64,000 nt of DNA, from the NCBI GenBank assembly GCA_025782575.1, contig JALGYY010000017.1, positions 919,892-983,891 of the forward strand, in the 5' to 3' direction. The translations under genes and the position numbers were made by a program. The stretch comes from a bacterium (GTDB taxonomy: Bacteria; Orphanbacterota; Orphanbacteria; Orphanbacterales; Orphanbacteraceae). The notes beneath the pieces are model-generated. The model saw only the letters and a list, made by a program, of their open reading frames with translations. It was not told the DNA's origin and ran no database searches. Below are positions 28,659 through 52,497 of this stretch, piece by piece (the first letter of the stretch is position 1; each line of letters begins with the position of its first letter).

Positions 28659-30221
28659 CTATCCCAGATAAGGAAGAGCCTCGAGGCCTTCCCGTTCTTT
28701 CTCCCGCCGCTCATCGGGAATCTTGCGATCAATCGACCGATTCCCTTCCCGAAGGGGAGCGATTTCCTCGAAACCAGGGGTAAAGAGATCGTCAATCGGC
28801 ACGCCGTCCATATCCCGCGGCACTGTCTCACCCAGAATGCGGAGCAAGGTCGGCGCGAGATCCATAAGGCGGGGTCGCTCGCCGGGGGGCGCCCGCTTTC
28901 CCGATTTCACATGGGGCCCTTTCACGATCAAAATGCCCCGCCGGTTATGGTAACCCGAAAATGTAAAGGACGGTTCCCGAAAGAGATTCGTGCCGTCGAA
29001 AGGGGAACCACGGCCAAAGAAGAAGCCGGGTCTCGGCTCGAAGAGAAGATCAGGCGCCCTGTCGAGATAAGGCCCGCTGTAGATTTCATCCCGCCGGTAG
29101 ACCTCTGCGACCACACGCTCTCCTGTCTCCGAATCGACGAGTCTGGTAAGCTTCCCTTCCAGCTCAGCAATCAGATCGTCATACTCTCGCCCGCCGTCCA
29201 CCACCCCCCGTTTGAATGCGCTCTTCGTGTTGATCGTCATTCGTCCACCGAGATGGGTGAAGTAGAGTACACGGGATCTCGGGAAATCAGTGTCGCAATA
29301 CCCTTCGTTCCAGAGCCACTTGAGCACAGCCATTTCCCGGCTTACACTCTCGAAGCCATGATCGGAGGCCACCAGAACGATCGTGTTCTCGTCCGCCCTT
29401 TCCAGAAATTCGCCGACTATTTCGTCGATTCGAATCCAGAAATCACGAATTGTATTCTGATATTTTTCAGCAAGCGCGGGATCAACCCCATGCCTGCCCT
29501 CTTCGTCTTCCATGAACTTCCAGAAAAAATGCTGCACTTTATCCGTCCCCATGAACACGACCCAGAAAAGCTCCCAGTCGTCCTCTTCGAACAGCTCGAT
29601 TGCGGCACGGAAACGGGCCTCCCGCGTGGCGATCAGATTCCCGAGAAATGCTTCTTCGCTACCTTCGGGCAGGTACTCCCCATAACGGTCGAGGCGCCAG
29701 GGGCCAAGACCTTTTTCCAGTTCGGGAGGCCATGTGTATCCGGTATCACGAAGATGGGGAAATCCGCCGACCATCTTGCCTGCAATCGGATCGGGAGGAG
29801 TTGTAAGGGGGACCGTCATGATGACGGAGGGGCGTTCCGATTCGGTCAGATACTCCCATACAGCCTTGGCCCGGCGGTCGAGAGCTGTCGCGGGAACGGG
29901 CATGAAGCGGTCGCGATCGACGAGCTCGAAGTCATAGATTCCATGCTTGCCCGGATTGACGCCGGTAATCGCACTTGTCCATGCAGGAGCGGATAGCGGG
30001 GGAATCACGGACTCCAGCTCGGCGGAATACCCGTCATTCCTCATGGCGGCAAGATTCGGCAGAAGGCCCTGATCCATCCAGGGTTCGATGAGGTCGAATG
30101 TAGCGCCATCCAGACCGATCACAGCCACGCGGAGGCCTGTCGGGAGAGGCGAATCGGCACACCCGGTTAAGAGAAGCAGAGCGTAACCGAACAGGATCGC
30201 TCTCACTCCGGCAGCTCTCAC
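28659..30221 (-). CDS. AP-superfamily phosphodiesterase lipoprotein (type I phosphodiesterase/NPP-like)
   Basis: A protein of about 520 residues with a lipobox (LLLLTGC), so it is probably anchored in the periplasm. The alkaline-phosphatase-superfamily metal motifs are complete: VIGLDGATFD, nucleophile region PPLSAPAWTSAITG, GTDKVQHFFW, VASDHGFE and FSGYH before the final strand. This group hydrolyses phosphodiesters or transfers phosphoryl groups on nucleotides, lipids or glycans; the substrate is unknown. The GTG at 30221 overlaps the TGA of the upstream lipoprotein gene (GTGA). The C-terminus (EGLEALPYLG) is a divergent form of the LGYI tail found on its neighbours. Confidence 0.9.
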   Translation of the reverse strand: MRAAGVRAILFGYALLLLTGCADSPLPTGLRVAVIGLDGATFDLIEPWMDQGLLPNLAAMRNDGYSAELESVIPPLSAPAWTSAITGVNPGKHGIYDFELVDRDRFMPVPATALDRRAKAVWEYLTESERPSVIMTVPLTTPPDPIAGKMVGGFPHLRDTGYTWPPELEKGLGPWRLDRYGEYLPEGSEEAFLGNLIATREARFRAAIELFEEDDWELFWVVFMGTDKVQHFFWKFMEDEEGRHGVDPALAEKYQNTIRDFWIRIDEIVGEFLERADENTIVLVASDHGFESVSREMAVLKWLWNEGYCDTDFPRSRVLYFTHLGGRMTINTKSAFKRGVVDGGREYDDLIAELEGKLTRLVDSETGERVVAEVYRRDEIYSGPYLDRAPDLLFEPRPGFFFGRGSPFDGTNLFREPSFTFSGYHNRRGILIVKGPHVKSGKRAPPGERPRLMDLAPTLLRILGETVPRDMDGVPIDDLFTPGFEEIAPLREGNRSIDRKIPDERREKEREGLEALPYLG

Positions 30222-30838
30222 TTCGATTCGATCGGTCGGAGAACGAGGCTGAGCTCGCACTTCTCACAGCTCCCGGGGAACATGGAGGTGATGCCCGGAT
30301 GATTCGGGCATTGATACTCCATCCTGGCAAGAACCAGATCTTTTCCGCCGCACTTCACACACTTGGTCGGATAGGGGAACGAGATGTCCGGATGCTCGGG
30401 GCAGGTGTAACCCTGAATCTGTCCCAACACGAAAGGTGCCGAAAATCGAATCGGTTCGCCGTCGTCGGTTTCGAGACCGACAATCTCGAAAGAGAGCTCG
30501 CCGAAACCATCCTGCTTACCCGAGAAATCGAACTGGCCGTAAAGCGCCTCACCATGCTGCCGGAACCCCTGGCGATCGGTCTCCCCTCCGGCCTCCGTGA
30601 CCAGAACCGTCCCCTTCAGACCTTCTACGGGGAGAAGATCCCCCTCACGTGTGTGCGGGTAGATTTCCACACCGACGTTAGAGCAGAGCACCTCCATTTT
30701 GTAATCGCCGGCGGCAACGATCACGCCACCATGGGGACCGGACTCCGGCTCACCACCCCCACCGCATCCGCCGCAACCGGCCCCGAACAGGGCGGCCACA
30801 CCGAGAACAAATGCTATTTTTCGATAGACAAGATTCAT
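30218..30838 (-). CDS. Lipoprotein with two heavy-metal-binding-domain-like zinc/copper modules
   Basis: A 206-residue lipoprotein (signal LGVAALFGAGC, followed by a Cys/Gly-rich stretch). Residues 25-140 form a beta-rich domain. The C-terminal 65 residues carry two copies of a module resembling the heavy-metal-binding domain of CusB/CopA-type proteins: YTCPEHPDISFPYPTKCVKC and YQCPNHPGITSMFPGSCEKC. In each, Cys-x2-His and Cys-x2-Cys form a likely metal site. It may bind copper or zinc, or act as a structural zinc module. The start at 30838 has GGAGGAG seven bases upstream. It overlaps the next gene, which encodes a metal-dependent phosphodiesterase, so metal delivery to that enzyme is conceivable. 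Confidence 0.8.
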   Translation of the reverse strand: MNLVYRKIAFVLGVAALFGAGCGGCGGGGEPESGPHGGVIVAAGDYKMEVLCSNVGVEIYPHTREGDLLPVEGLKGTVLVTEAGGETDRQGFRQHGEALYGQFDFSGKQDGFGELSFEIVGLETDDGEPIRFSAPFVLGQIQGYTCPEHPDISFPYPTKCVKCGGKDLVLARMEYQCPNHPGITSMFPGSCEKCELSLVLRPIESK

Positions 30839-30891
30839 CTGATTACTCCTCCAAACTGCTGCTCCCACCATAACCGAGCATGGGGGCACGA

Positions 30892-32262
30892 TCAATCGAT
30901 GTAGCCGAGTGCTTCCAGCTCCCGTCTTACTTTTTCGTCGGCAGGCGCGGTTCGCCCGGACTTCCCATCCAGAAAACGGACCGCCCGCGTCGCCTGAGAT
31001 TCCAGAACTTTCTCCAGCCTGGTCTGAAGCTCTGACAAGATATCGAACCGGATCTCATGAAGATCATTCAGCTCAAAAGGATCCGCTTCCAGATCGAAGA
31101 GAGACGACTTTCCGTCGGACTCGAAAACCGCTTTCCAGCGATCACCCGTCAAAGCGTAGCGCCCGTACGGATTGTTCCTGCTGCGCCACCGCGCGCTCGA
31201 TTCGCTGAGAACATACCGGGACGGAATCTCTTCACTCAGCACATCGACCCCGCTTGCCTGCAATGCCAATGCACCGGCCGGGATCTTCGCCGACAGGCCA
31301 AAGAGTGTGGGGAAGACGTCGACAAGGGACATGACTGTCGTCATCCGTTCGGGGGAAACACCCGGGACACGAATGATGAGGGGCACGTGAAGCTGCTCGT
31401 TCCAGTTGAGTCCATGGTGCCAGTGGCCATGCTGGCCGAGCCCTTCACCATGGTCACCCGCGATGACTACTACTGTACGCTTCCAGTCGGCCTGCACTCG
31501 AAGTCGATCGAGCAGCCTCCCGACCTCGGAATCAACATAGCGAACTTCATTGTCATAATATGACAGGACGTCCTCAGCGATAAACGTGGCCGGATCCCAT
31601 TCATCTCCTGTGACGATCTTGTCATCGAACGCCCTCGTCCTCACGAAGAAAGAAGCTCCGTCACCAGGCGCAAAAAAATCCTGATAATCGGGAGGAGGTT
31701 CGTACGGAGCGTGGGGATCGAAGTAGTGCACCCAAAGAAAACAGGCTTTCTCCCCTCTCCGGCTCTCATTCAACCATCGAAAGACAGCTTCATTCGTTTC
31801 CCTCGCGTTCCGCTCGGCTCCATCCGGTTCATTGAACGTATCGAAGCCGGCGTCGATCCCTGTGTCTTTCTTGATCGGTGTAGCGCTCACGAACGCGGCG
31901 GTCTGGTAGCCGGCTTCCTGCGCCACCTCGGCATAGCTCTTCAGGACGGGCGAGGGGATGAACCGAGAGCCGTCGATATCGGCATTGGCGTGAATGCCGT
32001 GCTCGACCGGATAGGTACTCGTCAAGAGTGAAACATGGGACGGGAGGGTCGTCGCAATCGGAGCAATACAACGCTCGAACAGGAGTGCATCCTTGGCGAA
32101 CCGGTCGATGTTCGGCGACGTGTCGCGAAAGTAGCCGTAACACCCGAGGTTTTCCGCACGGATCGTGTCGATCGTAATCAGAACGACGTTCCATGGGATC
32201 GACTCCGAGCCGCAGGAGAGAATCGTCAAACAGAGGATAGTGACCGCCGCCGGGAATCTCAT
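30892..32262 (-). CDS. Sulfatase-fold lipoprotein ending in LGYI tail
   Basis: A 456-residue protein with a lipoprotein signal (VTILCLTILSCG). Sulfatase-family features: NVVLITIDTIRAENLGCYGY at the N-terminus, TTLPSHVSLLTSTYPVEHG at the nucleophile site, and GDHGEGLGQHGHWHHG. The Cys/Ser-x-Pro-x-Arg motif needed for formylglycine is absent. The aligned residue is Thr, as in phosphoglycerol-transferase-like members, so activity on phosphate esters is at least as likely as on sulfate esters. Its ATG overlaps the TAA of the M1 peptidase gene by one base (TAATG). The last residues are RRELEALGYID, shared in form with other proteins here. Confidence 0.88.
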   Translation of the reverse strand: MRFPAAVTILCLTILSCGSESIPWNVVLITIDTIRAENLGCYGYFRDTSPNIDRFAKDALLFERCIAPIATTLPSHVSLLTSTYPVEHGIHANADIDGSRFIPSPVLKSYAEVAQEAGYQTAAFVSATPIKKDTGIDAGFDTFNEPDGAERNARETNEAVFRWLNESRRGEKACFLWVHYFDPHAPYEPPPDYQDFFAPGDGASFFVRTRAFDDKIVTGDEWDPATFIAEDVLSYYDNEVRYVDSEVGRLLDRLRVQADWKRTVVVIAGDHGEGLGQHGHWHHGLNWNEQLHVPLIIRVPGVSPERMTTVMSLVDVFPTLFGLSAKIPAGALALQASGVDVLSEEIPSRYVLSESSARWRSRNNPYGRYALTGDRWKAVFESDGKSSLFDLEADPFELNDLHEIRFDILSELQTRLEKVLESQATRAVRFLDGKSGRTAPADEKVRRELEALGYID

Positions 32263-34361
32263 TACCGGAGATCGACCCGCATGGGAGAGAGACCGGATGG
32301 CCATTCCCCTTTCGCCACATTCTGATCGCCATCGAAGGCAAGGTAACCATATTTCCCATAGTGCGGAATCTTCCGTCCGATGGATGGGATCGAGGTGGCG
32401 TCGGCCGGTAAAAAGAGGCTCCAGGAAAGGTCAGGTGTCGCCGGGTGTGGCACTGTGAGAACAAGTGAGTGGTTCGAAGGGTCATGAAGCTCCCCATCGA
32501 GATTCCACGAGCCCTCTTCCAGCGCCGAGCCTGGCGGCAACGCCGCTGCGAATCGATCAGTGAAACGAGTATCGCCAAAAAGCCAGACCGCTTGATCGGA
32601 CGGAATCGTGTCGACCTCGGACTCGTCGGTGATTTCGAACCCGCCTGAGTCACCCCAGCCTTCGATCATGGTGCGGAGCGCGTTTCGCTTCTCCTCTGAT
32701 TCACTCGATGAGATGATGATCAGCGTTTTTTCCGCTCCCAATGTCTGTGACAATGCGGCGGGAATCTCCGCGCGATAGAGTCTCCGAAATAAATCGAACT
32801 CGGGATCCACACCGATCGAAACGGGCCGGCTTCGCCCCTCCCAGTGGAATTCACTCTCCTCCCCGTCGAGAATGACGATCATATCTTCCGATCCGCCGTC
32901 CCACTCGATTCGAACGGGAACCTCTAACTCATAACAGGGCCTCTCCTGAGTGAGCCGCCCTTCGAGCAGGAAATGGCCATCCTCTTCTTTCACTCGACAA
33001 TCCTGAACACCGATCACAGGCGCCCCTTCCCGTTCCACCCATTGCTCGAAGAATGTCTCCAGATTCTGACCACTCACTGTTTCGAATGACTCACGGATTT
33101 CCCGCCACGAGGAGACCTGAAACCGATTCCTTTTATAGAATGCCGCGAGGCTCTTTTTGAAAGGGACCTCGCCGACACCACGTCTCAGCATATGAAAGAC
33201 CATAGTGGCTTTGGAGTAACCGACCGCCTGAGTCGACGCTGAAGTACGGCTCCTGAATTCATTCAAGGGGAAATCTTTCTCGTCTTGCACGTAGTTCAGA
33301 TACTTCCGAAGTTCGCCGCGCCTGTAGGATGCTGCGCTTCCTGCGCTTCGCTCCTCTTTGTACGCGTGATCCGCACCATAGCTCGTCAAGCCCTCACACC
33401 AGTTTCCCGCCTCCCAATCGACGTATACGCCGTTTCCCCACCAGTTGTGCAGGATTTCATGTCGGTAAGATGTATAGGGGATGAACGGCAGACGAATCAC
33501 CGTACTTCCGAGCAGGGTAAACGAGGGCATGCCGTAACCTGTTTGCCAGAAGTTCTCGACAATTGCGAACTTGGGAAACGGATAGGAGCCGATCTCCGCT
33601 TCGTAAAGATCGATGTAACGGGACGTGAGAGGGACGTAGGTTTCCCATAGTTCGCCGGCATCGTCAGCCTCATACAGGAAGCCATAGATCGCGACGTCAT
33701 TCAGATCGGACTCATAGAATCGATAGGGCCCCGCAATGAGATAGACCTCTTCATTGGGGACCGACGACTCCCACCGACTGGTTCGCATCCCCCCGCGATC
33801 GGTGCGCGATTCGAGCGCACCCTGGCTCACAGACTCCCAGTAATCGGGAACGGTGACGAGAAGTTTGAATTCAAAAAGGGAGCCTGGAATGGTCGGGAGC
33901 CAGCAGGTACCACCATCCAGGTAGGCGCCGCGCCCTTCGATCAGGCCCGTGGTCGTCTCGAACGAGCGCGCATAGGCGGCCGATGGTGGATGAAGGGAAT
34001 CCATTACGGTGCCCTCCGCCCGTAGATTGACCAGGGCTCTGGTCTCCATGCTCGCGGGAAGACTCGCCCGATATCGCACGACATGCGCCTCATCACCCTC
34101 TTCGGCGCCGACGACTCGCCAAGTAGCGCGCCGGTCTCCGACGTTCAGCTCTTTGATCTCCAGGTCGCGGTGAAACAGGAACTCAAAGCTGCTCCCCTCG
34201 ATTCCTTCGACAGTGAATTGATCATCTAAGACCAGACGGGATGATCGGGGTGTGATTTCCGCGCTGATGACATGGGATACGATTGTCGGCTCCGCATTGA
34301 CTACGGCGGCAGTCGCAAGAACCAGCATCAACATGATTCCGATAGTCGATCGAGCCATCAT
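32262..34361 (-). CDS. Secreted M1-family (gluzincin) aminopeptidase-like protein
   Basis: A 699-residue exported protein (signal GIMLMLVLATAAVVNA). The M1 zinc site is present: His301, Glu302 and His305 (RHEILHNWWGN), then Glu323 (NWCEGLTSY), one residue closer than the classic spacing. SKATMVFHMLRR and SGQNLETFFEQWV are conserved helices after the site. The last 150 residues form a separate domain that I do not recognise. It probably cleaves peptides in the periplasm. AAGGAAGAG precedes the start. It lies between the tandem AP hydrolases and the sulfatase in one operon-like run. Confidence 0.9.
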   Translation of the reverse strand: MMARSTIGIMLMLVLATAAVVNAEPTIVSHVISAEITPRSSRLVLDDQFTVEGIEGSSFEFLFHRDLEIKELNVGDRRATWRVVGAEEGDEAHVVRYRASLPASMETRALVNLRAEGTVMDSLHPPSAAYARSFETTTGLIEGRGAYLDGGTCWLPTIPGSLFEFKLLVTVPDYWESVSQGALESRTDRGGMRTSRWESSVPNEEVYLIAGPYRFYESDLNDVAIYGFLYEADDAGELWETYVPLTSRYIDLYEAEIGSYPFPKFAIVENFWQTGYGMPSFTLLGSTVIRLPFIPYTSYRHEILHNWWGNGVYVDWEAGNWCEGLTSYGADHAYKEERSAGSAASYRRGELRKYLNYVQDEKDFPLNEFRSRTSASTQAVGYSKATMVFHMLRRGVGEVPFKKSLAAFYKRNRFQVSSWREIRESFETVSGQNLETFFEQWVEREGAPVIGVQDCRVKEEDGHFLLEGRLTQERPCYELEVPVRIEWDGGSEDMIVILDGEESEFHWEGRSRPVSIGVDPEFDLFRRLYRAEIPAALSQTLGAEKTLIIISSSESEEKRNALRTMIEGWGDSGGFEITDESEVDTIPSDQAVWLFGDTRFTDRFAAALPPGSALEEGSWNLDGELHDPSNHSLVLTVPHPATPDLSWSLFLPADATSIPSIGRKIPHYGKYGYLAFDGDQNVAKGEWPSGLSPMRVDLR

Positions 34362-34372
34362 CTCTTCCTTTA

Positions 34373-36649
34373 CTATTGGATGTAGCCGAGAGCCCGAAGC
34401 TCTTTTAGTACTGATTCATCTGCGCCTTCCGACGCGGGATCATCCTCGCCGGCGTCAGGCACCCCCCCCTCATACCGATCAATCCATGTAACAGGATTGG
34501 CAGCACGATACTTTTCGCTGAGGGCGCCCAGCATCACTTTCCCTTCCCACTCCAGAGACTGGGGAAGCCCGAGAAGATAGAAAAGGGTCGGCACGACGTC
34601 GTAGATGGTCGCCCCTCGAAACCTCTTTCCCTTTGCCGCGTTATCACCCGACAGAATCACGATCCCGTTGATCCTGTGATTGCCCGACTTGGGCGATCGT
34701 TTGGCGATCAGCGATACCGGAATCTCGCTTCCTGGAATTGCCATCACCCCGCCGAGAGCATCAAGGTTCAGTTCGGCTAAGAGATCCCCTTTACTCGACG
34801 TCTCGCCGGCATGGGGATCGCGCCGGATATCCAGGAAAACCGGTGTGCCGATACCGGTCCGAAGACCTTTCAGTATGCGCTCCGCCTCGTCGAGGGCACG
34901 CGGGAAATCGGCAGGTGACACGATTCCCTCCTCTTCCCGCCCGATCAGGTTCACGAACAACTTCAGGACATGGGGGCGCTCCGAATCACGCCCTCCATGA
35001 AAGCGGGACTTCGAAAGTATGATCTTGCCGTCCGCCTCCGCCGCCCAACCGAGTGAAAGCAGGAGCGGCTTCGGTTGCACTGAAATCTGGCGGTCGTACC
35101 GGTAACCGCTTCCATGGTCGCTCACCACCATTACCGTCGTCATCGGTTCCATGCGGTCGAGGATTTCCCCGATACACTCATCTACGAACCGCGTGTACGA
35201 GTCGATGACTCGAGAGAGTTCGCTCATTTCGTCGCTCCCGATTTCGTAGAGCCAATCGGTCAGCTTGGGGTTATGCTCGGATCCGTAGAACTTGCGAAAC
35301 TTGTGCTGGGTGGCGTCGGTTCCTCGAAAGTAGATCGCCATGACATCGGGTTGGCCTTCGTCGATACGCCGCAATGCGAAATCCTTCGTCACGAGATCGC
35401 GCAGGAATGTCTGATCGAGTACCTCGACCGCACTCTTCCTTAGATCCGACGCTCCCCGGTCATCTTCTCCCGGTTGATCACGCAACGGATCGTATGAAGT
35501 GAAACGATCCCGCATGTCCCCGATCCGCGGCCGGTAGTTATCGAGCAGGGAATCCAGAAACGGTTCGTAGCTATCAGGGAAGACGCGCTCGGGAATCGTG
35601 TGGTAGGTCGCCCGGTCTGTCAGCATCACTCCGCTCACCGAGTCGGGTGGCCATGACGGATACCATGACAGAACATCGACCGGGAGATCGAGATCAGTCA
35701 GTACATCCCAATAGGTTGCTTTCTGGCGAATCCGGTTGGTCGTCGTCACCCATCGGCCCCGGGCCTCGGAATACGAGAGGAAATCGAATACGCGGTGATC
35801 CTCGGGACGTCGGGAGGTCGCCACGCTCGTCCAGACCTGGGGCGACTTGATCGGGGGAAGGGTCGATCGCAATATGCCGGTGGAGCCGTTTTCAATCAGA
35901 CGTGCGAGCGCCGGCAGTTCCCCCTTTTCGAAGAGGGGATCGAGGAGATCCCAACCTACGCCGTCCAGGCAGAGAATGATCACTTTTGAAGCATCCTGCC
36001 CGGGCATGATCATGTCCGCCCGATTGCGGCCCCGTTCGGCGATGGCACCTGCAATCGAGACGCACAGGATGACGAACAGAATGGCGGTGAGCGCGGGGGC
36101 GATCCATGGTATTAGGAGGGCCTCTTTCCGCGGGACGGGACGGGAAATGATGAAAGATATGAGGCCGGCCGCCAGAAACGAGAGGAGCACCAGCACGAGA
36201 AACCCCACGCGGGCGGCGGAACCGGGCAGACGAAAATGGAGGAGCGCCAGAAGAGTGTAGCCGTAGAAAATGCCGCCCAGTACGACTGTGGAAAGCAGAA
36301 AAGTAATGGACCGGCCGTCGGGGCGGCGACCGGCGGCACGGGAAATCAGACCGTGCGCGAGGCCGGCAAGTGCCCCGGCCAGAGCTCCTCCAAGAGCATA
36401 GACTAGAAAGAGATGGAACGGGCTATCCAGGGCGCGCGCAACGGCACCGGAAAGAATCCGCCGGCTCACTTCGATGATCAGTTCATTGCCGACCAGAGTG
36501 TAATTGGGGAACGGGTACTCCAGATAGCAGACGAGAAAACCGACCAACGCGCCGTAGATGAGACCGACCGCCGTTCCTGCTCGCCAATGTTTTCCCAACA
36601 CTCGCCAGATCCTTCCCGCGTTCTCGGGAAACAGACTCCCGGGCAGCAA
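34373..36649 (-). CDS. Membrane-anchored AP-superfamily hydrolase, tandem copy B
   Basis: A 758-residue protein: about five membrane segments in residues 25-205, then an AP-superfamily domain. Catalytic motifs: ILCLDGVGWD, PPIKSPQVWTSVATSRRPED (nucleophile Ser), FRGTDATQHKF, VVSDHGSGY and SGNHRINGIVILSG. By the positive-inside rule the catalytic domain should be outside the cytoplasm. The start is a TTG directly after the stop of the paralogous gene, so expression is coupled; no ATG is available near it. It shares domain order and most motifs with its neighbour. The tail is LKELRALGYIQ. Phosphodiester or phosphoglycerol substrates on envelope glycolipids are possible. Confidence 0.88.
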   Translation of the reverse strand: MLPGSLFPENAGRIWRVLGKHWRAGTAVGLIYGALVGFLVCYLEYPFPNYTLVGNELIIEVSRRILSGAVARALDSPFHLFLVYALGGALAGALAGLAHGLISRAAGRRPDGRSITFLLSTVVLGGIFYGYTLLALLHFRLPGSAARVGFLVLVLLSFLAAGLISFIISRPVPRKEALLIPWIAPALTAILFVILCVSIAGAIAERGRNRADMIMPGQDASKVIILCLDGVGWDLLDPLFEKGELPALARLIENGSTGILRSTLPPIKSPQVWTSVATSRRPEDHRVFDFLSYSEARGRWVTTTNRIRQKATYWDVLTDLDLPVDVLSWYPSWPPDSVSGVMLTDRATYHTIPERVFPDSYEPFLDSLLDNYRPRIGDMRDRFTSYDPLRDQPGEDDRGASDLRKSAVEVLDQTFLRDLVTKDFALRRIDEGQPDVMAIYFRGTDATQHKFRKFYGSEHNPKLTDWLYEIGSDEMSELSRVIDSYTRFVDECIGEILDRMEPMTTVMVVSDHGSGYRYDRQISVQPKPLLLSLGWAAEADGKIILSKSRFHGGRDSERPHVLKLFVNLIGREEEGIVSPADFPRALDEAERILKGLRTGIGTPVFLDIRRDPHAGETSSKGDLLAELNLDALGGVMAIPGSEIPVSLIAKRSPKSGNHRINGIVILSGDNAAKGKRFRGATIYDVVPTLFYLLGLPQSLEWEGKVMLGALSEKYRAANPVTWIDRYEGGVPDAGEDDPASEGADESVLKELRALGYIQ

Positions 36650-38896: not shown

Positions 38897-38944
38897 AGCG
38901 TTGCTGCGACGGCACGAGCAGGTGCCACCCTCTCGCCCTCAATT

Positions 38945-38953: not shown

Positions 38954-38961
38954 CGCTCGTA

Positions 38962-42342: not shown

Positions 42343-42351
42343 GATCGCAAG

Positions 42352-43170: not shown

Positions 43171-43204
43171 GGAGATTCAATTCCTTCCAATGGCTGGAGG
43201 GGAG

Positions 43205-43399: not shown

Positions 43400-43421
43400 G
43401 ATGTCTCCTTCCTGCGGTGAT

Positions 43422-45470
43422 CTAAAAAACGGAAGCGCCGATCATGTCAGGCCCCTTCTCGATTCCGAAGAACTCGAGAATGGTCGCTGTCAGATCGTAC
43501 AGCCTGGGATTCGGATTAGTTATCTCCCGGTTTACGATCAGAATTCCGGGTACGAGATCTTCGGCGATACAGTGATCACCGCTCCACTTGCCGGTATTGT
43601 CCCCGAACCACTCTATCGGGAATTCGCCGAGGGCCGATTCATTCGATCCTCGATAGGTAAGCGCGTACCCGACATTCATGTCAGGAGCGTATTTTGCGAA
43701 GGCACCGGAATAGACATCGTCACTCTTATAGACTTCTTTGATAGCGTACATACCGGTCACCGGATCTTCGATTCCCTTCAACTTCTGCACGAGTTCCTCG
43801 ATCAACTCATCACGCTCCGCGCCAGGCGCCACTGTCCCGAACTTCTCGCGCCCCCTCACGTTGATGTAAAGGCCGTTAATCCCGAGCGCGTAGGCCCGTG
43901 TGTTCTTCCAGTCCACATTCATGAAGAAGTCAGACGTTTCGCGCGCCGCCTGGGAAGGATCCTTGAGCGTCAGATAGCCATTATCGGCAAGCCAGGAATT
44001 CAGATGCATTTCCCGATACCACGGCGCGAATCCATGATCCGACATGACGACGATCGTCGCATCCCCTTCCAGTTCATCGAGGGCCACCCCGACCGCCTCA
44101 TCGAGCCGCTTGAATATGTTGACCACCACGTCGGAGTGCTTGAGCGATTCTTCATCAGCCGCCGGATGGTTCGGATCGAACGCCCGCCACATCATGTGAG
44201 TCTGCTGGTCGAGACTGGAAAAATAGAAGAACAGGAAACCCCACTCTTCCTGTGCGAAATCCCTGATCATCGCTTCGAAGAGCATCATACGCTCATCGAG
44301 CACCATCCCCGCCTGGTGGATGTACTCGGAGTCATCGAAGATGCCCCCTTCGAGAGCCTTGGAATCTTCGGGCATGCCCTGCGTGTAAAAACGGCCCAGT
44401 CGATCAGAGAGTTCGACCGACCAATTGTCGGGGGTCGAAACAGGCTGCGCCGGATTGGCGGGATCGATCTGCACGGGCGTTACGTAGAGGCCGAACTGGG
44501 GGGAGACCGACCGGAGGTAGAGCCGGGCGATCCCGTTGATCGCGAGCCCCATGGGAGCTGCGACCGGCTTCACCTTTGCGCCGAATCCTTCCTCGCCCAG
44601 CATGTAGTACTCCACCGGAACCCAGTCGCTCCATTCACCTTCGGCGAGTAGAACTTCCTCTCCGTCGCCGAGAACGATCTTTGCGGTCTTGTTCTCTTCA
44701 TCTCGGTAGATGCGAATGGGGCACTCCGCCTTCTTCCCCTTCTGACTGAACGGATTCCCCGGCCCGGGGATTCCCCCTTTCGCCACACCACGATCGAAAT
44801 AGATATCGATCACCTCGCCGCCGGAAATGTCGTCGGCATCCTCAGGAGGGTGTGTGGTGAAATAGGTAAACGTTCCGGGCGTCCCCTGCATATCAGGCGT
44901 ACCCATCCCGGACAGCGATCTTGCTTCGCTTTCGGTCGGAGGATAATTCGCGGGGATCTTGAAGATCGTTGTCGGCACCCCGCCTTCGTCCAGATACTCC
45001 CAGAACGCTTTCCCCTCACGAAGATTAATGACTTCGCCGCCGCCGAGAGGGAGCTGCCAGTCCCCCCACAGCTTGATTGATTTATCCGAACCTACCGCCT
45101 CTGACGTGGACAGGTAGGGTAGATAGGTCTCCGGATCGCGATGGATGAAATCGAAAATATTATGGCCACCCGGATTCTGGCCGGTAATAAAGTTCGACCA
45201 CGCGACCGGGCTCTGGGGCGGAATGCTCGTGCCGAGAGTGGTGAACTCCCCGCTTGCGATGAGCCGCCGGAAGTTCGGCATATAGCCGGCGTCCAGATGT
45301 TCCCGAAGTTGCTTGGGATCCATGCCGTCCAGGCCGATCACCACCATCTTCTTTTTCTCGGGAGCCGCCTCGCCCGGACTCGTGAGCATGGCGATCGCCA
45401 GGCCTCCCGTCAGAAGCGTTGCGATACCTGCGGGCTTCCACCAGGACTTCACTATCTTGAGACTAACCAT
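43422..45470 (-). CDS. AP-superfamily phosphodiesterase/phosphotransferase, exported
   Basis: A 682-residue protein with an N-terminal signal or anchor (AGIATLLTGGLAIAMLTSPG). Metal and nucleophile motifs are complete: VVIGLDGMDP, PPQSPVAWSNFITG, SSLDQQTHMMW, VMSDHGFAPW and WSGDHCIAEDLVPGILIVN. An insertion of about 230 residues between the nucleophile and the LDQQTH motif forms the substrate-specific part and is shared in outline with the next gene upstream. The ATG overlaps the stop of the upstream gene by eight bases. The C-terminus (DMIGASVF) is of the other type found in this operon (compare QMIGEPLF at 49695). The substrate is unknown. Confidence 0.88.
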   Translation of the reverse strand: MVSLKIVKSWWKPAGIATLLTGGLAIAMLTSPGEAAPEKKKMVVIGLDGMDPKQLREHLDAGYMPNFRRLIASGEFTTLGTSIPPQSPVAWSNFITGQNPGGHNIFDFIHRDPETYLPYLSTSEAVGSDKSIKLWGDWQLPLGGGEVINLREGKAFWEYLDEGGVPTTIFKIPANYPPTESEARSLSGMGTPDMQGTPGTFTYFTTHPPEDADDISGGEVIDIYFDRGVAKGGIPGPGNPFSQKGKKAECPIRIYRDEENKTAKIVLGDGEEVLLAEGEWSDWVPVEYYMLGEEGFGAKVKPVAAPMGLAINGIARLYLRSVSPQFGLYVTPVQIDPANPAQPVSTPDNWSVELSDRLGRFYTQGMPEDSKALEGGIFDDSEYIHQAGMVLDERMMLFEAMIRDFAQEEWGFLFFYFSSLDQQTHMMWRAFDPNHPAADEESLKHSDVVVNIFKRLDEAVGVALDELEGDATIVVMSDHGFAPWYREMHLNSWLADNGYLTLKDPSQAARETSDFFMNVDWKNTRAYALGINGLYINVRGREKFGTVAPGAERDELIEELVQKLKGIEDPVTGMYAIKEVYKSDDVYSGAFAKYAPDMNVGYALTYRGSNESALGEFPIEWFGDNTGKWSGDHCIAEDLVPGILIVNREITNPNPRLYDLTATILEFFGIEKGPDMIGASVF

Positions 45471-47676
45471 TCGCTATCTTCTCCTGAGGGGTGGGCTCGC
45501 GACGCTCTTCAGTCTGATCCGGCCGGAAGAATGACCGGCCCTGCATATGTCTCGGCGCGGCAATACCGAAGAGATCGAGCACCGACGCGGACATGTCAAT
45601 AATGCACGGATTCTCACGGACGAGCCTCTTGCTCGAGAAGAGAATGCCGGGTACGAGCCGCCAATCCGTGCAATGGTCACCGCTCCACGCCTTCGGATTA
45701 TCGTGGATCACCCGGCCGTCCGCTTTCCCGACCGCGGCGGCCCATGACTGCCTGTAGTTGTGATTGAAGCCGGGCAGCAGATCGGGACCATTCCCGACAT
45801 ATGGCCCGTCGTAGAGCTCGTTCGTAATAAAGACTTCCGTGATCGCCACATCATTGTTCCGCTCGGAATCGCGAAGCCCGGACAGCTTCTCTTTGATCTC
45901 CCGGCGTAATGCCTGAGCTTCTTCACCCGGTTCGACGATCCCCTGCCCTTCACGACCCTTGATATTCAGATAGATTCCGGTGAGACCGAAACTGTAGGCC
46001 TTTGTCTTCGACCAGTCGACGCCGCGAAACCAGTCGGAGCAATCTGTGCCGCCATCCTTCATATACATGTAGCCATTCTCGACGAGCCACGAATTCAGAT
46101 TGAATCCCCGTGCGAACTGAGTGAATCCATGATCGGACATCACCATCAGGACCGTCTTCTTGTCCTTCTCCGTGATTCTCATGATCCGCCCGAGCATCTC
46201 ATCCATGCGCTCATAGAGATTGTCGATCGCTCCCTTGTGGACTTCTGTATCCTGGCCTTGATTGGCGGGATGATCGTCGAGCTTGTATCGATGAAACATG
46301 TGCTGAATCCGGTCGGTTCCGTCGAACACGCAGACCAGCAGTCCTTTCCTGCATTGACTGAGAGCGTTGAAGAACATCTTCTCCCGCTCCTCATGCGTGA
46401 GCCAGGCCTGTTCCAGAAACGCCTGCTCATCGATCACCCGCTCATTCAGCCCCCAGGTATCCTCGCAGAACCCGAGTGTGGCGTAGCTTCCCTGCAGCTT
46501 CGAAAGATAAGTGGAATAATAGGCCGGATGGGAAATCGGCATGGCCGGCTTCTCCGGGTCGATCTGCACCGGCGAAACATAAAGTTTAAAGTGAGGCGTC
46601 ATCTCCATGACATAGAAGCGAACAAGTCCCCAGACTTTGATTCCCAGCCCCGGCTTGAACGCCGTGCGGATCCAGGGGGAATACTCTTTAGGCTTCAGCG
46701 TGAATTTCTCACCATTAAACTCGAAGTGGGCAACCCCTTTGGCTTCATCAATCTTGATCTTGAACGGCTCTCGGAGCTCCTCGTTATCTTTCGACATCGA
46801 ATTTTCGGGCCCGGGAACGTAGGCTTCGACTATGTCATTGACCTTCTTGATACGGTATCGAACACCGCCGGTCGCTTCACCCAGTTCACTTTCATCGTCC
46901 GTATAATAGGTAAACGTCCCCTGGGATCCCTTGAGATCGGGAACGCACATCGCCGAGAGAAGAACCCCTTTGTGTTTTTCCGGCGGGAAAGTAATCGGCA
47001 CTCGCAGTACATGCGAAAAAATGCCGTAATCGCCGAGAATCCTCCAGAACGGCACCGACTTCCGGAGCATGCGGATCACCGGCTTGCCTAGAGGGATCTT
47101 GTATTTGCCGAGATTCAGCGTTCGGGAGACATTCCCGATAAAGACCGATGCGAGATCGGGCAGATAGGTTTTGGGATCGCGATTCAGGAAATCGAACTGG
47201 TTGTGCCTCGAGGGATCGACACCCGTAGCGAATGACGACCAGGCGACCGGGGACATGGCGGGCATCACGGTTTCGAGCTGCTGGAAATCGCCGCTCTCCG
47301 CGAGCTCCTCGAAGTTGGGCATTTTCCCTTCGTCCATGTACTTCCGGCAATAGTTGGGATCGAGTCCGTCGAGTCCGACAATCACCACGCGTTCGGTGTC
47401 CGTTTTGGGCGCTCGTTTCTTGAAGATCAACTTCCAGAGGAAGCGGATCGGCCAGAGCAGGATCGAAGCCATCGCCAGTACGAACGTGACGAAGAAGACT
47501 GCGAATGAAGAGAGAAATGCAAAGCCCGCACCCGGCCCGATGTACGCGTCTACCGGTGCCGGCGTGGCGGCGAAAAGTGCCACCAGCGCTACGAGAAAAA
47601 AGAGGCCCCGCGGAGCCGGAACAGAACCGGGCGCGATCTGTCCGCCCCATCCGCCCGTTCCTTTCAGTCTAGCCAC
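45463..47676 (-). CDS. AP-superfamily phosphodiesterase with AYIGPGAG membrane anchor
   Basis: A 737-residue protein. A cleavable-looking signal ends at PAPVDA, followed by YIGPGAGFAFLSSF and a membrane segment (FVTFVLAMASILLW). Basic residues (FKKRAPK) come next, so the catalytic domain may face the cytoplasm. The AP motifs are intact: VIVGLDGLDP, PAMSPVAWSSFATG, FDGTDRIQHMFHRY, VMSDHGFTQF and WSGDHCTDWRLVPGILF. The GTG at 47676 overlaps the upstream stop and has AAGGGGG nine bases before it, so it is preferred over an ATG 33 bases earlier. It is closely related to the 43422 gene. Confidence 0.88.
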   Translation of the reverse strand: MARLKGTGGWGGQIAPGSVPAPRGLFFLVALVALFAATPAPVDAYIGPGAGFAFLSSFAVFFVTFVLAMASILLWPIRFLWKLIFKKRAPKTDTERVVIVGLDGLDPNYCRKYMDEGKMPNFEELAESGDFQQLETVMPAMSPVAWSSFATGVDPSRHNQFDFLNRDPKTYLPDLASVFIGNVSRTLNLGKYKIPLGKPVIRMLRKSVPFWRILGDYGIFSHVLRVPITFPPEKHKGVLLSAMCVPDLKGSQGTFTYYTDDESELGEATGGVRYRIKKVNDIVEAYVPGPENSMSKDNEELREPFKIKIDEAKGVAHFEFNGEKFTLKPKEYSPWIRTAFKPGLGIKVWGLVRFYVMEMTPHFKLYVSPVQIDPEKPAMPISHPAYYSTYLSKLQGSYATLGFCEDTWGLNERVIDEQAFLEQAWLTHEEREKMFFNALSQCRKGLLVCVFDGTDRIQHMFHRYKLDDHPANQGQDTEVHKGAIDNLYERMDEMLGRIMRITEKDKKTVLMVMSDHGFTQFARGFNLNSWLVENGYMYMKDGGTDCSDWFRGVDWSKTKAYSFGLTGIYLNIKGREGQGIVEPGEEAQALRREIKEKLSGLRDSERNNDVAITEVFITNELYDGPYVGNGPDLLPGFNHNYRQSWAAAVGKADGRVIHDNPKAWSGDHCTDWRLVPGILFSSKRLVRENPCIIDMSASVLDLFGIAAPRHMQGRSFFRPDQTEERREPTPQEKIANG

Positions 47677-49000
47677 CGTTCGAATCCCCCTTGGTGAGCC
47701 TGTTCTCAATCACAGACGCAATCCCAGTAATATCAAAGGCCTCCGGCATTTTGTCCGGGCTCCATAGAAATGCGTCGTCCCAATTGTGCATCCCAGTGAA
47801 ATGGCTCCTACCGAACGGATCGCCCGATCGATGCCACCCCTTTACATCATAGCCGTCATTTGCCACAAGGACCAGATCCGGACCACGGTGTTTCTCGGGG
47901 CCCGAGTAAAGATCAGCCCCCAGATGTCCCGCCTGAAAGACCTTCTCCCCCTGATATTCGACAGCAAGCGCCTTTTCTCTAAGCTCCTCACAAAGGGGTC
48001 GGACCTCGTCGCTACGCACCCCACCCCGCGGGAATCGATCAGCCGTGTGAATGTAGATGCGAGTCGGATCGAGTGCGAGCGCCAGCGCCCCGGGCGCAAT
48101 CTCTTCGAACCCGGTTGCATTGTCCGACCGGTAGGCGAGGTACCCCTCGTTTTCGAGCCAGGCGTTCAGGTAGAACTCCTCTTTGATCTCGGTGAAACCA
48201 TGATCGGAGAGCGCGAAAAACCCGGCGCCGCTTTCATCACCCGTCTTCTCGATATACCGGTCGAAGGCCCGCCCGAGAAACGCGTCGACATCGTGATAAT
48301 AGTCCAGGAAGCGTTGATGATTCCCATGGGATTCGTCGAACGCCCCATCCATCTGAAAGTGCATCAGCCGATCGGTTCCGGTGACGACGATCTCGAAGAG
48401 ATCCCACTCTTTCTCCCAGAAGTAATCGAACGCCCGCTCCCGTCCTTCGAGCGTGGAACGCAACTGCTTGAAGAGAAAATCGGCGTCTTGCCCCCCCTTT
48501 CGGGAGTCCACGTCGATCTCGTAATCCATCTCGATCAATTTGTCATAGAGTGTAATCGGATGAACCGCTCGCTTCATGTCGATCGCGACGAAACCGGAGA
48601 CGAGCATCCCCGGGATCGGCCTCGCCGGATAGGTAGACGGCTGATTGATTACAATCGAGCGCTTCCCCTTTTCGCCGAGCCTGTCCCAGAACGTCGATGC
48701 TTTCAGTTCGGGAAAAGAGGGAAAGCGGATATCGTAGCTTCGGGGTTTGAAGTCGGTGAATCCATAGACACCGTGGACGCCGGGGCCGGCGCCTGTCATG
48801 AAGCTCGTCCAGCTCACAGAAGAGACTTCCGGCAGGGTGACTTTCATTCGATGCAGCGTGCCACGCTCGAAAATTTCCACCGCCCGAGGCATGACCCCCT
48901 CGTCCATGAACCGGCGGAGCAATTTATGCGGAACGCCATCGACGCCGAAGACACATGCCTTCGGCGCCGACTTCCCGCGCTTCAAAAACTTGAAAGCCAA
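47669..49000 (-). CDS. Cytoplasmic AP-superfamily hydrolase
   Basis: A 443-residue protein without signal peptide. Motifs: CVFGVDGVPH, PEVSSVSWTSFMTG (Ser nucleophile), VTGTDRLMHF, ALSDHGFTEI and FTGMHNWDDAFLWSP, so the two-metal site appears complete. It begins at TTG, supported by GGAG seven bases upstream, and follows the APS kinase gene by 19 bp. Its cytoplasmic location places it in the same compartment as the Sat/CysC products. The substrate could be a nucleotide such as APS, PAPS or PAP, or a lipid precursor; neither is shown by the sequence. Confidence 0.87.
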   Translation of the reverse strand: MAFKFLKRGKSAPKACVFGVDGVPHKLLRRFMDEGVMPRAVEIFERGTLHRMKVTLPEVSSVSWTSFMTGAGPGVHGVYGFTDFKPRSYDIRFPSFPELKASTFWDRLGEKGKRSIVINQPSTYPARPIPGMLVSGFVAIDMKRAVHPITLYDKLIEMDYEIDVDSRKGGQDADFLFKQLRSTLEGRERAFDYFWEKEWDLFEIVVTGTDRLMHFQMDGAFDESHGNHQRFLDYYHDVDAFLGRAFDRYIEKTGDESGAGFFALSDHGFTEIKEEFYLNAWLENEGYLAYRSDNATGFEEIAPGALALALDPTRIYIHTADRFPRGGVRSDEVRPLCEELREKALAVEYQGEKVFQAGHLGADLYSGPEKHRGPDLVLVANDGYDVKGWHRSGDPFGRSHFTGMHNWDDAFLWSPDKMPEAFDITGIASVIENRLTKGDSNGG

Positions 49001-49019
49001 ATGAGGCTCCTAGTGGTTC

Positions 49020-49622
49020 CTAAAGATAGCCGAGGTCTTTGAGCCGCTGCTTGATCTTCTCCTCTTCCTCATCAGAGAAATCCTGCGAAGCGTCGGCACC
49101 GGGCACGAGTCCCATCAGTTCGAGAGTCCGAATGATTTTCTGGACACTCTCTTCCTCGCTCTCCTTGTCGGTTTCGACAAGAATCTCAGGATTCAAAGGC
49201 TCCTCGTACGGATCGTCCACGCCGGTAAAGCCCTTGATCTCTCCCGCGAGCGCCTTGGCGTAGAGCCCCTTTACGTCACGGTCGGTAAGAACTTCCAGAG
49301 GACACTTGCAGTAGACCTCTACAAAATTGTCGATCTTGTCGCGGTTCATATCGCGGATCTCACGATACGGGCTGATGGCCGAAGCGATCGACGCAACGCC
49401 GTTTCGGCTGAGGAGCTGGCAGACAAAACCGATCCGCTTGATGTTCTCGTCACGATCTTCTTTCGAGAAGCCGAGCCCCTTCGACAGATTCGTGCGAATC
49501 ACATCGCCGTCGAGAACCTCAACTTTGAGACCCCGCTCACGCATGATGTCTTCCACCTGGCGGGCCAGGGTCGTCTTGCCGGAACCGGAAAGTCCGGTGA
49601 ACCAGAGAGTAAAGCCTTTCAT
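49020..49622 (-). CDS. cysC: Adenylylsulfate (APS) kinase with LGYL tail
   Basis: A 200-residue kinase that phosphorylates APS at the 3' position to form PAPS. The Walker A loop is GLSGSGKTT (residues 10-18). [20 protein letters not shown] and [17 protein letters not shown] are APS-kinase signatures, and [20 protein letters not shown] forms the lid region. Residues beyond about 175 exceed the usual length: an acidic stretch is followed by [12 protein letters not shown], the same tail as on the two RHH proteins of the operon. GGAGG and AAGGA precede the ATG. No PAPS reductase or recognisable sulfotransferase is in the window. Confidence 0.95.
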
Positions 49623-49694
49623 TTCCTTCGTATCCTCCTGCGAGCCGCCTCCCGGGCGCTCTCGTCGTTGCTACGCTCGTTTCGCCGTGCCGCC

Positions 49695-51074
49695 TTAGAA
49701 GAGAGGCTCGCCGATCATCTGCTTCGGCTGATCGATATCGAAGTACTTCATGATTGTCGGAGCGATGTCATAAATCGAATAGGGGTCTTTGGCATTCGGA
49801 ACGATTTTCGCCGGATGATCCCAGATGAATATGCCTTCCCAGTCGTGGTTCGTATCGTCGTGCTCCCCTTCGGTATCTTCGAGATGGAGTTCGCCTGAGC
49901 CGACCCGGCCTGCGGCGCGCCAACCAAGATTGCCGAAAAAGACGAGGAGGTCCGGCGCCACACCGGTCACTTCGGTGAACGTCTCCTCGGGATAGAGCAC
50001 CTTCGTACCGATCGAATTTCCCGAAGGGCCGGCCACAGCTTCGAGCTTCTCTTTCAGCTCCCGCCGGAACCCGTCGGCCTCCCCTTCCGGGATCGTCCCC
50101 TTCGTCTCCCGGCCTTCGATATTCAGAAAGACGCGGCCATAGTTCCCGCCGGTAGCCCACGCTTTCGTCTTCTTCCAGTCGATCATGTCGTGCGTGAGCG
50201 GCCCCGGCTCCTCCGGCTTCTTCTTCAGCTTGAGGAGCTTCTCCTGAATGAGCCACTCGTTCACGCATACCGACCCTTCGAGCCGCCGTGCGCCGTAGGC
50301 GGACGTGATCATGACCGATGTATCCTGCGGGAGGGAATCGAGCAGATTGCCGAGTTCCTCATCAAGAAACACATAGTAGTCATGGAGCGCCTCGGCGTGC
50401 CGGCTGTCAGGCACGAACTTGGGATGTTCCGGATCCATGAAGCGCCAGAACGCCCGCTGCATCCGGTCGGTGCCTACTTCCCCCAGCATCATGAAGTCGA
50501 ACTCCTTCTGCTGGGCGTAGTATCGAAACGCCTCGAAACGGCGGCGCGTCATGTCCTTGATCTGCTCGATCAGCCAGTCTCTGGCGTCGGTGCGATAATC
50601 TTTCGTGTCGATGACGTAGTCGCCGCGCGCCACATTGTCCACTTCACCCGCCGCTTCACGCGGGTGGGTCCATTGCACCGACTTGTTGGGCGTCAATATG
50701 CCGGAGACAAGAACACCCTTCATCGGCTTAGGAGGCCAGGTCTGCGGAACACCCATCACGAGCGAGTTCAGACGGAGCCGGGAGAGGTGGTTCCATATCG
50801 TTTTGCCGCGCACGTCCGTCGAATCGAGGGCCGTCATGGAATCGTATTCTCTGCTCCCATGCCCATCGAACTCATAGAGGCCGAGCTGCCCCGGATCCTG
50901 GCCGGTCACCATCGACGTCCACGCGGGAATCGTCACAGGCGGAGTGGTCGATTGGAGCCTGCGATGAAGCCCATCGTCCATCACCGACTTGATGTTCGGC
51001 AAATCGTCTATCCATCGCTGGAAAACGAGTTCGGGGGGTGCGCCATCGAGTCCGATTAAAGCGAGACGACTCAT
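49695..51074 (-). CDS. AP-superfamily paralogue with degenerate metal site (probable pseudoenzyme)
   Basis: A 459-residue cytoplasmic protein that aligns along its length with the AP-superfamily proteins of this operon. ALIGLDGAPP and PPVTIPAWTSMVTG (Thr in place of Ser) are kept. The other metal-ligand positions are altered: GTDRMQRAFW has Arg where paralogues have His, and TSAYGARRLEG replaces SDHGF, losing the Asp and His. It is therefore probably not a two-metal hydrolase and may bind a ligand or hold partners together. It lies between sat and cysC. AAGGAGAAGGG precedes the ATG. The C-terminus is QMIGEPLF. Confidence 0.85.
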   Translation of the reverse strand: MSRLALIGLDGAPPELVFQRWIDDLPNIKSVMDDGLHRRLQSTTPPVTIPAWTSMVTGQDPGQLGLYEFDGHGSREYDSMTALDSTDVRGKTIWNHLSRLRLNSLVMGVPQTWPPKPMKGVLVSGILTPNKSVQWTHPREAAGEVDNVARGDYVIDTKDYRTDARDWLIEQIKDMTRRRFEAFRYYAQQKEFDFMMLGEVGTDRMQRAFWRFMDPEHPKFVPDSRHAEALHDYYVFLDEELGNLLDSLPQDTSVMITSAYGARRLEGSVCVNEWLIQEKLLKLKKKPEEPGPLTHDMIDWKKTKAWATGGNYGRVFLNIEGRETKGTIPEGEADGFRRELKEKLEAVAGPSGNSIGTKVLYPEETFTEVTGVAPDLLVFFGNLGWRAAGRVGSGELHLEDTEGEHDDTNHDWEGIFIWDHPAKIVPNAKDPYSIYDIAPTIMKYFDIDQPKQMIGEPLF

Positions 51075-51088
51075 TTGACCCTTCTCCT

Positions 51089-52240
51089 TTATTGATCCTT
51101 GTAGAACGACATGAGGAGCTCCGCCACCTCAGGACGAGTGAACTCGGGCGGAGGCATCTTGCCCTCGGCCAGCATGGCCCGTACTTTCGTCCCGCTCAGG
51201 AACACATGATCTTCCGATCCGTGTGAGCAGGTCTTCGACGATGCCATATTGCCGCATTTCTTACAGAAGAACGAGTGATCAAAAAACATCGGCGTAATAT
51301 CGATTTCGTAGCGATCGAATTCGGCGAAGATATAGTGCGCGTCGTACGTGCCGTAGTAGCTCCCTACGCCGGCGTGGTCACGGCCCACGATGAAGTGGGA
51401 GCATCCGTAGTTCTTGCGGACCAATGCATGAAATACCGCTTCCCTCGGGCCGGCATACCGCATCGCGGCCGGAAAGATGGAAAGGGCGGTCCTGGTGGAC
51501 GGATAGTAATTCTCGAACAGGATCTTGTAGCACTCCATCCGGATCTCAGCCGGGATGTCCCCCTTCTGAGTCTCACCGACCAGCGGGTGAACGAGCAGCC
51601 CGTCCACGATCTCGAGGGCGCACTTCTGCAGGTACTCATGAGCCCTGTGGATCGGATTGCGGGTCTGGAAGGCGACAATCGTCTCCCACCCTTTGGCCTT
51701 GAACAGAACGCGCGTCTCTTTGGGATCGAGCCGGAAATTCTCAAATCGATTGTGCTGGGGCCGCTTGAGAAGCGAGATCGTGCCGCCAAGGTACGTGCCT
51801 ATGATCGTGTCGAGATAGCGAACGCCCGGATGAGCATCATCGTTCGTCAGGAGTACTTTGGAGGCCTCCTGCTGCTTGTCGACTCCGTATTTCTCCTCGA
51901 GGTCCATCACGGCGAGAATTTCACCATCCGATTCGACGAGGGCGATCTGATTCCCCTCGACGAACTCATCGCCGTCACCCTCTTTCACCGCAAGCACCAC
52001 CGGAATCGTCCAGGGGAGCCCTTTGGCAAGACGTTTGAGGTCGAGCACGGAAAGATAGTCTTCCCGGCCCATGAAGCCTTCCAGGGGGCTCATGGCCCCG
52101 ATGGCGATCATCTCGAGATCGGCGGTCTCCCGATCGTTCAGCGTGAGCTTCGGGAGAGAAGGAGCGAGGGATTCCAGCTGTTCGCGCTCCTTGCCCTCCG
52201 CGATGCGGTTGATCAGTTTTCCGCCGTGTGCCTTGATCAT
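51089..52240 (-). CDS. sat: Sulfate adenylyltransferase (ATP sulfurylase)
   Basis: A 383-residue monofunctional ATP sulfurylase that makes APS from ATP and sulfate. Signature motifs are QTRNPIHRAHEY in the active site and IVGRDHAGVGSYYG. A zinc-type CKKCGNMASSKTC segment and FLSGTKVRAML near the C-terminus also fit the dissimilatory/archaeal-like Sat group. AAGGA precedes the ATG. It is the second gene of the RHH-sat-AP-cysC operon. With CysC it would supply PAPS; without a reductase nearby, use for sulfonation rather than cysteine synthesis is plausible. Confidence 0.95.
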   Translation of the reverse strand: MIKAHGGKLINRIAEGKEREQLESLAPSLPKLTLNDRETADLEMIAIGAMSPLEGFMGREDYLSVLDLKRLAKGLPWTIPVVLAVKEGDGDEFVEGNQIALVESDGEILAVMDLEEKYGVDKQQEASKVLLTNDDAHPGVRYLDTIIGTYLGGTISLLKRPQHNRFENFRLDPKETRVLFKAKGWETIVAFQTRNPIHRAHEYLQKCALEIVDGLLVHPLVGETQKGDIPAEIRMECYKILFENYYPSTRTALSIFPAAMRYAGPREAVFHALVRKNYGCSHFIVGRDHAGVGSYYGTYDAHYIFAEFDRYEIDITPMFFDHSFFCKKCGNMASSKTCSHGSEDHVFLSGTKVRAMLAEGKMPPPEFTRPEVAELLMSFYKDQ

Positions 52241-52272
52241 GATGTCCTTTCCATCGCCCGGATTTGCGGGCT

Positions 52273-52497
52273 TTATTCCAGGTAACCCAGGTTCTTCAGT
52301 TTCTGACGGATGCCGCTCAACTCCTCCTGCGAAAAGGTATCGTTGTTCGTTTCCGCCGCCGCCGTCGCCCCCACCAGATCGCGGAGGACGTAGACTATGA
52401 AATCGGTAGGCGAGCTAAACCCTGATTCTTCAATGATTTCTGCGATCCTCCGGTAAAGGGGGCGCGGAATCTTGATGGTGACCCGGTTCTCTTTCAT
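52273..52497 (-). CDS. Small ribbon-helix-helix protein with LGYL tail (RHH1), probable operon regulator
   Basis: A 74-residue protein. RVTIKIPRPLYRRIAEIIEE, then GFSSPTDFIVYVLRDLV, is a textbook RHH pattern (strand with alternating polar residues, helix A, turn with Ser-Ser, helix B). A linker of about 20 residues leads to GIRQKLKNLGYLE, the tail shared with CysC and RHH2. It is the first gene of the operon. Four octamers with 11-bp spacing stand in its leader, so it probably represses its own operon as Arc/CopG-type proteins do. Its effector is unknown; a link to sulfate or nucleotide status is a guess from context. Confidence 0.78.
   Translation of the reverse strand: MKENRVTIKIPRPLYRRIAEIIEESGFSSPTDFIVYVLRDLVGATAAAETNNDTFSQEELSGIRQKLKNLGYLE

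Follow-up and report, generated by a model that had tools for sequence, protein, structure and literature searches.

A conserved C-terminal LxxLGY(I/L) tail on alkaline phosphatase-superfamily enzymes and their cluster partners, a possible docking peptide

Tailed proteins of the window and of its genome

The 64,000-nucleotide stretch analysed here (positions 919,892 to 983,891 of contig JALGYY010000017.1, assembly GCA_025782575.1, Orphanbacterota), referred to as the window, contains a gene cluster in the order RHH-A, Sat, HydD, CysC, HydC, HydB, HydA, RHH-B and Mem272, and further enzymes of the alkaline phosphatase (AP) superfamily, all on the minus strand (Table 1). Several of these proteins end in a short tail of the form L-x-x-L-G-Y-(I/L)-x(0-1), which is the subject of this study. 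Such C-termini were found on 6 of the 42 genes in the window, where amino acid composition predicts 0.0004, and the 20,032 amino acids of the window's proteins contained no internal copy of the motif. A first-pass annotation of this DNA had listed seven tails, all of which were confirmed, six as exact matches and one as a divergent form (LPY), the latter persisting as ALPYLR in an orthologue (L126).

Table 1. Genes of the cluster and other tailed enzymes in the window, with tail positions and supporting matches
Gene or product	Coordinates	Strand	C-terminal tail	Supporting evidence
RHH-A, 74-aa ribbon-helix-helix (CopG-like) protein	52273..52497	-	FSQEELSGIRQKLKNLGYLE; last 9 aa KLKNLGYLE, 52276-52302	
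Sat, ATP sulfurylase	51089..52240	-	none	PF01747 2.5e-98
HydD, cytosolic-looking AP-superfamily hydrolase	49695..51074	-	none	PF01663 1.8e-34
CysC, APS kinase with C-terminal extension	49020..49622	-	RLKDLGYL, 49023-49046	PF01583 1.1e-61
HydC, AP-superfamily hydrolase	47669..49000	-	none	PF01663 1e-34
HydB, membrane-anchored AP-superfamily hydrolase	45463..47709	-	none	PF01663 3e-30; homologue N-termini
HydA, exported AP-superfamily hydrolase	43422..45470	-	none	PF01663 6.6e-31
RHH-B, 64-aa ribbon-helix-helix protein	43205..43399	-	SEEEIKKKLQGLGYIS; last 9 aa KLQGLGYIS, 43208-43234	
Mem272, Oxa1/YidC/EMC3-superfamily membrane protein, directly downstream of RHH-B	42352..43170	-		profile match MJ0480
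AP-superfamily enzyme	36650..38896	-	cis, ELRALGYID, 36653-36679	PF01663 1e-22
AP-superfamily enzyme	34373..36649	-	cis, ELRALGYIQ, 34376-34402	PF01663 3.1e-26
Sulfatase lipoprotein	30892..32304	-	cis, ELEALGYID, 30895-30921	PF00884 2.4e-43
AP-superfamily lipoprotein	28659..30260	-	divergent, EALPYLG, 28662-28682	PF01663 4e-43

The carriers represent three folds, the ribbon-helix-helix (RHH), the P-loop kinase and the AP superfamily, and not four or more as had been proposed, because the sulfatases (PF00884) and phosphodiesterases (PF01663) identified by Pfam matches are members of a single superfamily. The AP-superfamily enzymes of the window and the scanned tailed enzymes elsewhere in the genome matched PF00884 or PF01663, that at L021 through its upstream half. 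The adenosine phosphosulfate (APS) kinase domain of CysC is full length and includes the P-loop (TIGR00455, 3.8e-70). The proposal that the tails are conserved at the protein level was borne out, because 74 tails ending in GLGYIS were spelled by 45 distinct DNA sequences, which indicates selection on the peptide and rules out recent DNA duplication as the source of the tails.

Genome-wide counts were made with a DNA pattern of the tail followed by a TAA or TGA stop codon (TAG excluded), a pattern that misses RHH-B, CysC and the enzyme at 34373-36649. In the 4.88-Mb genome this pattern matched 21 sites, compared with 2 for the reversed control; here as in the window the tail is much more frequent than chance predicts. 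Eighteen of the 21 sites were true ends of open reading frames (ORFs), and the remaining three belong to a single repeat copied at contig ends; contigs C12, C16 and C17 (L015, L017 and L018) share an identical 27-base match at their ends, which points to a repeat element where the assembly breaks. One additional tail in this genome ends in LGYM with no residue after it. There are 22 exact tails in the genome, 19 on AP-superfamily enzymes (sulfatases and type I phosphodiesterases) and three on RHH-A, RHH-B and CysC; the unbiased search alone located tails on no proteins other than AP-superfamily enzymes and RHH-A, and RHH-B and CysC were added separately. The tail is missing from three further RHH-like proteins that were detected in this genome.

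Among the 29 ORFs that were readable from the 30 best sulfatase matches in this genome, 28 contained LxxL/IGY, at the C-terminus in 23 and internally, followed by a longer extension, in five. Sulfatase modules of this genome therefore normally end in the motif, which makes the tail less odd than first claimed. Of 40 pattern sites in other tail-rich genomes (five genomes, plus a single site from a sixth), 36 were tails of AP-superfamily enzymes, and the other four were short or odd ORFs resembling chance matches, with no convincing carrier outside the superfamily. Over 98 genomes, the 14 that contain RHH-B gave 125 sites versus 15 in the control, whereas the other 84 gave 166 versus 182; some genomes without RHH-B are also tail-rich, such as G041 (8 sites, 0 in the control) and G063 (5 and 1).

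Conservation of RHH-A, RHH-B and their neighbours

Orthologues of RHH-A and RHH-B were searched for with domain-only queries from which the tail had been removed, in order to avoid selecting for it. RHH-A gave 17 strong matches in 386 genomes, all 17 tailed, and RHH-B was found in 40 of the 386, with the tail kept in all 30 sequences that were fetched. In an independent GTDB collection the tail was present in 80 of 80 RHH-B proteins from about 11 phyla, including Eisenbacteria, Acidobacteriota, Planctomycetota, Gemmatimonadota, Latescibacterota, Omnitrophota, Thermodesulfobacteriota, Nitrospirae, Dadabacteria, Sumerlaeota and Ignavibacteria. Free loss of the tail among orthologues, which would have refuted the first-pass interpretation of the tail as a signal, was thus not observed in either family. 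Thirteen columns of the RHH-B alignment are invariant, four of them GLGY, and the final Ile/Ser is nearly so.

Both proteins belong to the ribbon-helix-helix (CopG/Arc) group by pattern and topology, the assignment being statistically weak for RHH-B. RHH-A matched PF01402 at an E-value of 0.0057, which is weak and below the curated cut-off, and a NikR profile at 0.0044, while RHH-B had no Pfam match. A confident AlphaFold2 model of RHH-B, built from 58 sequences (predicted local distance difference test score, pLDDT, 89.6), contains the pair of RHH helices at residues 11-24 and 29-45, a short break, and a separate tail helix at 50-59 with the LGYIS end. NikR, ParD and AtaR were among its top Foldseek matches (best probability 0.85-0.98), with E-values of about 0.5 that are weak for this very short chain. 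If the tail is a docking code, RHH-A and RHH-B, whose DNA binding is putative, might act as adaptors instead of simple repressors.

Over the 80 RHH-B loci, HydA was present in 78 and HydB in 70, flanking RHH-B, and Mem272 in 76; RHH-A, Sat, HydC, HydD and CysC are optional members. In these loci none of the hydrolases had a C-terminal tail (HydA 0/81, HydB 0/72, HydC 0/12, HydD 0/8), whereas RHH-A (18/18) and RHH-B (80/80) always did, and AP-superfamily enzymes elsewhere in the same genomes, unlike HydA-D, are usually tailed. The core HydB-HydA-RHH-B-Mem272 (window 42352-47709), with two AP-superfamily hydrolases and an Oxa1/YidC-superfamily protein that has an immunoglobulin (Ig)-like insert, is kept in about 11 phyla, and no published description of it was found.

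Export signals of the Sec, lipoprotein or Tat type are present in homologues of HydA. In HydB the sequence AYIGPGAGFA is followed by a transmembrane helix and then by the catalytic domain; from the N-termini of homologues, HydB is predicted to expose only a short segment outside the cell membrane and, owing to a positively charged flank, to keep its catalytic domain in the cytosol. In four genomes (L159, L177, L186 and L191) HydA has LASLGY(V/I) directly after the lipobox cysteine and ahead of the catalytic domain, so that the LGY motif need not be C-terminal. Residues 10-121 of Mem272 matched MJ0480 (PDB 5c8j; profile E-value 2.4e-9), which places it in the Oxa1/YidC/EMC3 superfamily, and the protein differs from known members in its predicted extracytoplasmic Ig-like insert (filamin-like, E-value 0.007) and in sharing one operon with HydA, HydB and RHH-B; insertase activity is only putative. 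Mem272 occurs in the same 14 of the 98 genomes as RHH-B and in one other. As a universal receptor of the tail it was ruled out, since genomes G007, G083 and G024 lack it although their RHH-A or CysC is tailed.

The window cluster is an extension of a known archaeal cluster of copG, ATP sulfurylase, phosphodiesterase and APS kinase genes. In Pyrococcus yayanosii, PYCH_17520-17560 encode CopG, ATP sulfurylase, a DHH pApase, a type I phosphodiesterase and APS kinase, and the phosphodiesterase was speculated to clear pyrophosphate (PMC8268124); the counterpart in T. onnurineus, TON_1704-1707, is homologous in order, and TON_1705 was termed a pyrophosphatase (PMC4463584). RHH-A, Sat, HydD and CysC resemble these clusters in gene types and order, but the window lacks the DHH pApase and adds HydC, HydB, HydA, RHH-B and the Oxa1-like protein.

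The CysC tail and the adjacency of HydC or HydD

The CysC tail is kept in distant orthologues. CysC was tailed in 23 of 24 cases in which HydC or HydD is adjacent, versus 3 of 33 elsewhere (Fisher p 1e-11), and complete CysC genes adjoining HydC were tailed. One of the three tailed CysC proteins away from HydC and HydD (L047) has what looks like an ordinary kinase end. Where HydC occurs without CysC, other tailed neighbours appear, namely a DUF2061 membrane protein and, unrelated to it, an ORF of 91 aa; this ORF (L345:2659-2934, plus strand) ends in ISKRLQALGYI directly before a HydC homologue and has no confident family match. At a site without an RHH gene (G083, L071), two AP-superfamily phosphodiesterases and a sulfatase, each with a cis tail, lie beside a tailed CysC. 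The link between the CysC tail and HydC/HydD adjacency is in the right direction but is suggestive only, because it reflects about five changes and two independent pairs on the tree.

Two Planctomycetota CysC proteins (L187 and L198) have degenerate tail-like ends, SLKAKGFI and RLKEKGYI, which may represent stages in the loss or acquisition of the tail. The tail of the window CysC resembles the kinase's own last helix and could stem from duplication of that helix. CysD was considered as a further carrier and dropped, as its LGYM ending is the normal terminus of that CysD clade. At L386:8860-9441 (plus strand), a protein with no Pfam match, recognised by eye as a tandem RHH-like protein, ends in REKLQRLGYL.

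A candidate docking peptide and alternative explanations

The tail is real, conserved, and limited to AP-superfamily enzymes and their cluster partners, and CysC tails are linked to HydC/HydD. The RHH-A and RHH-B families keep the tail without exception across about 11 phyla, which makes a role as a docking tag probable. In our preferred reading, to which we give a probability of roughly 0.38, the tail belongs with AP-superfamily enzymes as a portable docking peptide that works in cis on the sulfatases and in trans within the cluster. The peptide would consist of a variable acidic linker, an amphipathic helix of two to three turns, a glycine that caps the helix, and an exposed hydrophobic pair (LGY-I/L). 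In evolutionary terms it would be at home in the AP-superfamily module, where it is placed after the catalytic domain, as in the sulfatases and type I phosphodiesterases that are the source of most tails; the cluster differs in that HydA-D are untailed at the C-terminus, and the neighbours RHH-A, RHH-B and CysC, which carry the tail instead, would dock in trans. The receptor may be the cluster hydrolases or an assembly that contains them, bound directly through the AP domain, and docking might bring the kinase that forms 3'-phosphoadenosine 5'-phosphosulfate (PAPS) and the RHH proteins to hydrolases at the membrane. The docked hydrolases could remove pyrophosphate or handle a sulfated product, perhaps coupling PAPS formation to pyrophosphate removal.

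Several observations weigh against this reading. The association of CysC tails with HydC is clustered on the tree, and its two well-supported independent pairs give a sign-test p of 0.5. The CysC of G020 is untailed though it lies beside a HydC/D-like gene, the RHH-A at L392 adjoins an AP-superfamily enzyme with its own tail, and the tailed RHH-like protein of L386 precedes CysD-CysN with no tail-less AP-superfamily hydrolase nearby, only a tailed sulfatase some kilobases off. HydA cannot be the partner of the RHH proteins and CysC, because it is exported and they are cytosolic. In addition, an AlphaFold2 model of a tailed sulfatase, made from a shallow alignment to look for cis docking, did not position the tail (mean pLDDT 64, tail about 46-58).

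It is also conceivable, if somewhat unlikely, that the tails arose by convergence on a helix C-cap (Schellman-type L-x-x-L-G-hydrophobic) with a separate structural role in each family and no common partner. This explanation stays viable because an amphipathic helix with a glycine C-cap also fits the normal last helix of APS kinases, of which 7yq0 ends in KKLMELGYL, and in the CysD clade the native KKREGYF terminus drifted to MQKLRALGYM, with or without an adjacent HydC. However, convergence leaves unexplained the restriction of the tail to AP-superfamily enzymes and operon partners in the unbiased genome search, the invariant Tyr and near-invariant final Ile/Ser of RHH-B, and the occurrence of the CysC tail almost exclusively beside HydC/HydD.

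Encapsulin cargo tags and ssrA-type degrons are short conserved C-terminal peptides on unrelated carriers, and the LGY tail might likewise be a degron or a sorting signal at the C-terminus, recognised by some general receptor or protease of the cell rather than by AP-superfamily hydrolases. Most carriers have the tail at the extreme C-terminus behind a flexible linker, and tail-rich genomes are chiefly those with the RHH-B cluster; but the LGY tail differs in sequence from those signals (its ends are GYID, GYIS, GYLE and GYL, with no ssrA-like LAA ending), it is found on proteins of both membrane sides, it has no known reader, the motif is also internal in sulfatases and N-terminal in HydA, and there are nearly no non-AP carriers beyond these clusters. 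We regard a general receptor as improbable. The first-pass proposal of a docking or degradation signal read by one common partner fits the data as far as docking goes; a single partner was not borne out, given the carriers on both membrane sides and the distribution of Mem272, and nothing was found that speaks for or against degradation. A still less probable arrangement is one in which tails pair with one another or attach to the RHH proteins, and a CysC-RHH complex controls sulfate activation independently of AP-superfamily enzymes. RHH-A adjoins CysC in many loci, and the tandem RHH-like protein of L386 stands directly before CysD-CysN, yet most RHH-B loci have neither CysC nor RHH-A, and tails are commonest on sulfatases distant from any RHH gene. 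No relevant description of the tail emerged when the literature was searched for an LGY motif at sulfatase C-termini, and a PDB search with a 20-aa tail query returned no solved tailed protein.

A broader form of the docking reading, which we consider doubtful, is that LxxLGY(I/L) is a general code by which unrelated proteins (kinase, RHH and DUF2061 membrane proteins) are recruited to AP-superfamily hydrolases, and that these, together with an Oxa1-like protein, form an assembly for sulfate activation at the membrane that is conserved in about 11 mostly uncultured bacterial phyla. If such a docking code is true, it predicts physical partners for large uncharacterised hydrolase families and for two RHH families, of which RHH-B has no Pfam match and RHH-A only a sub-threshold one, and it would offer one short removable element with which to ask whether sulfate activation, hydrolysis and regulation form a complex.

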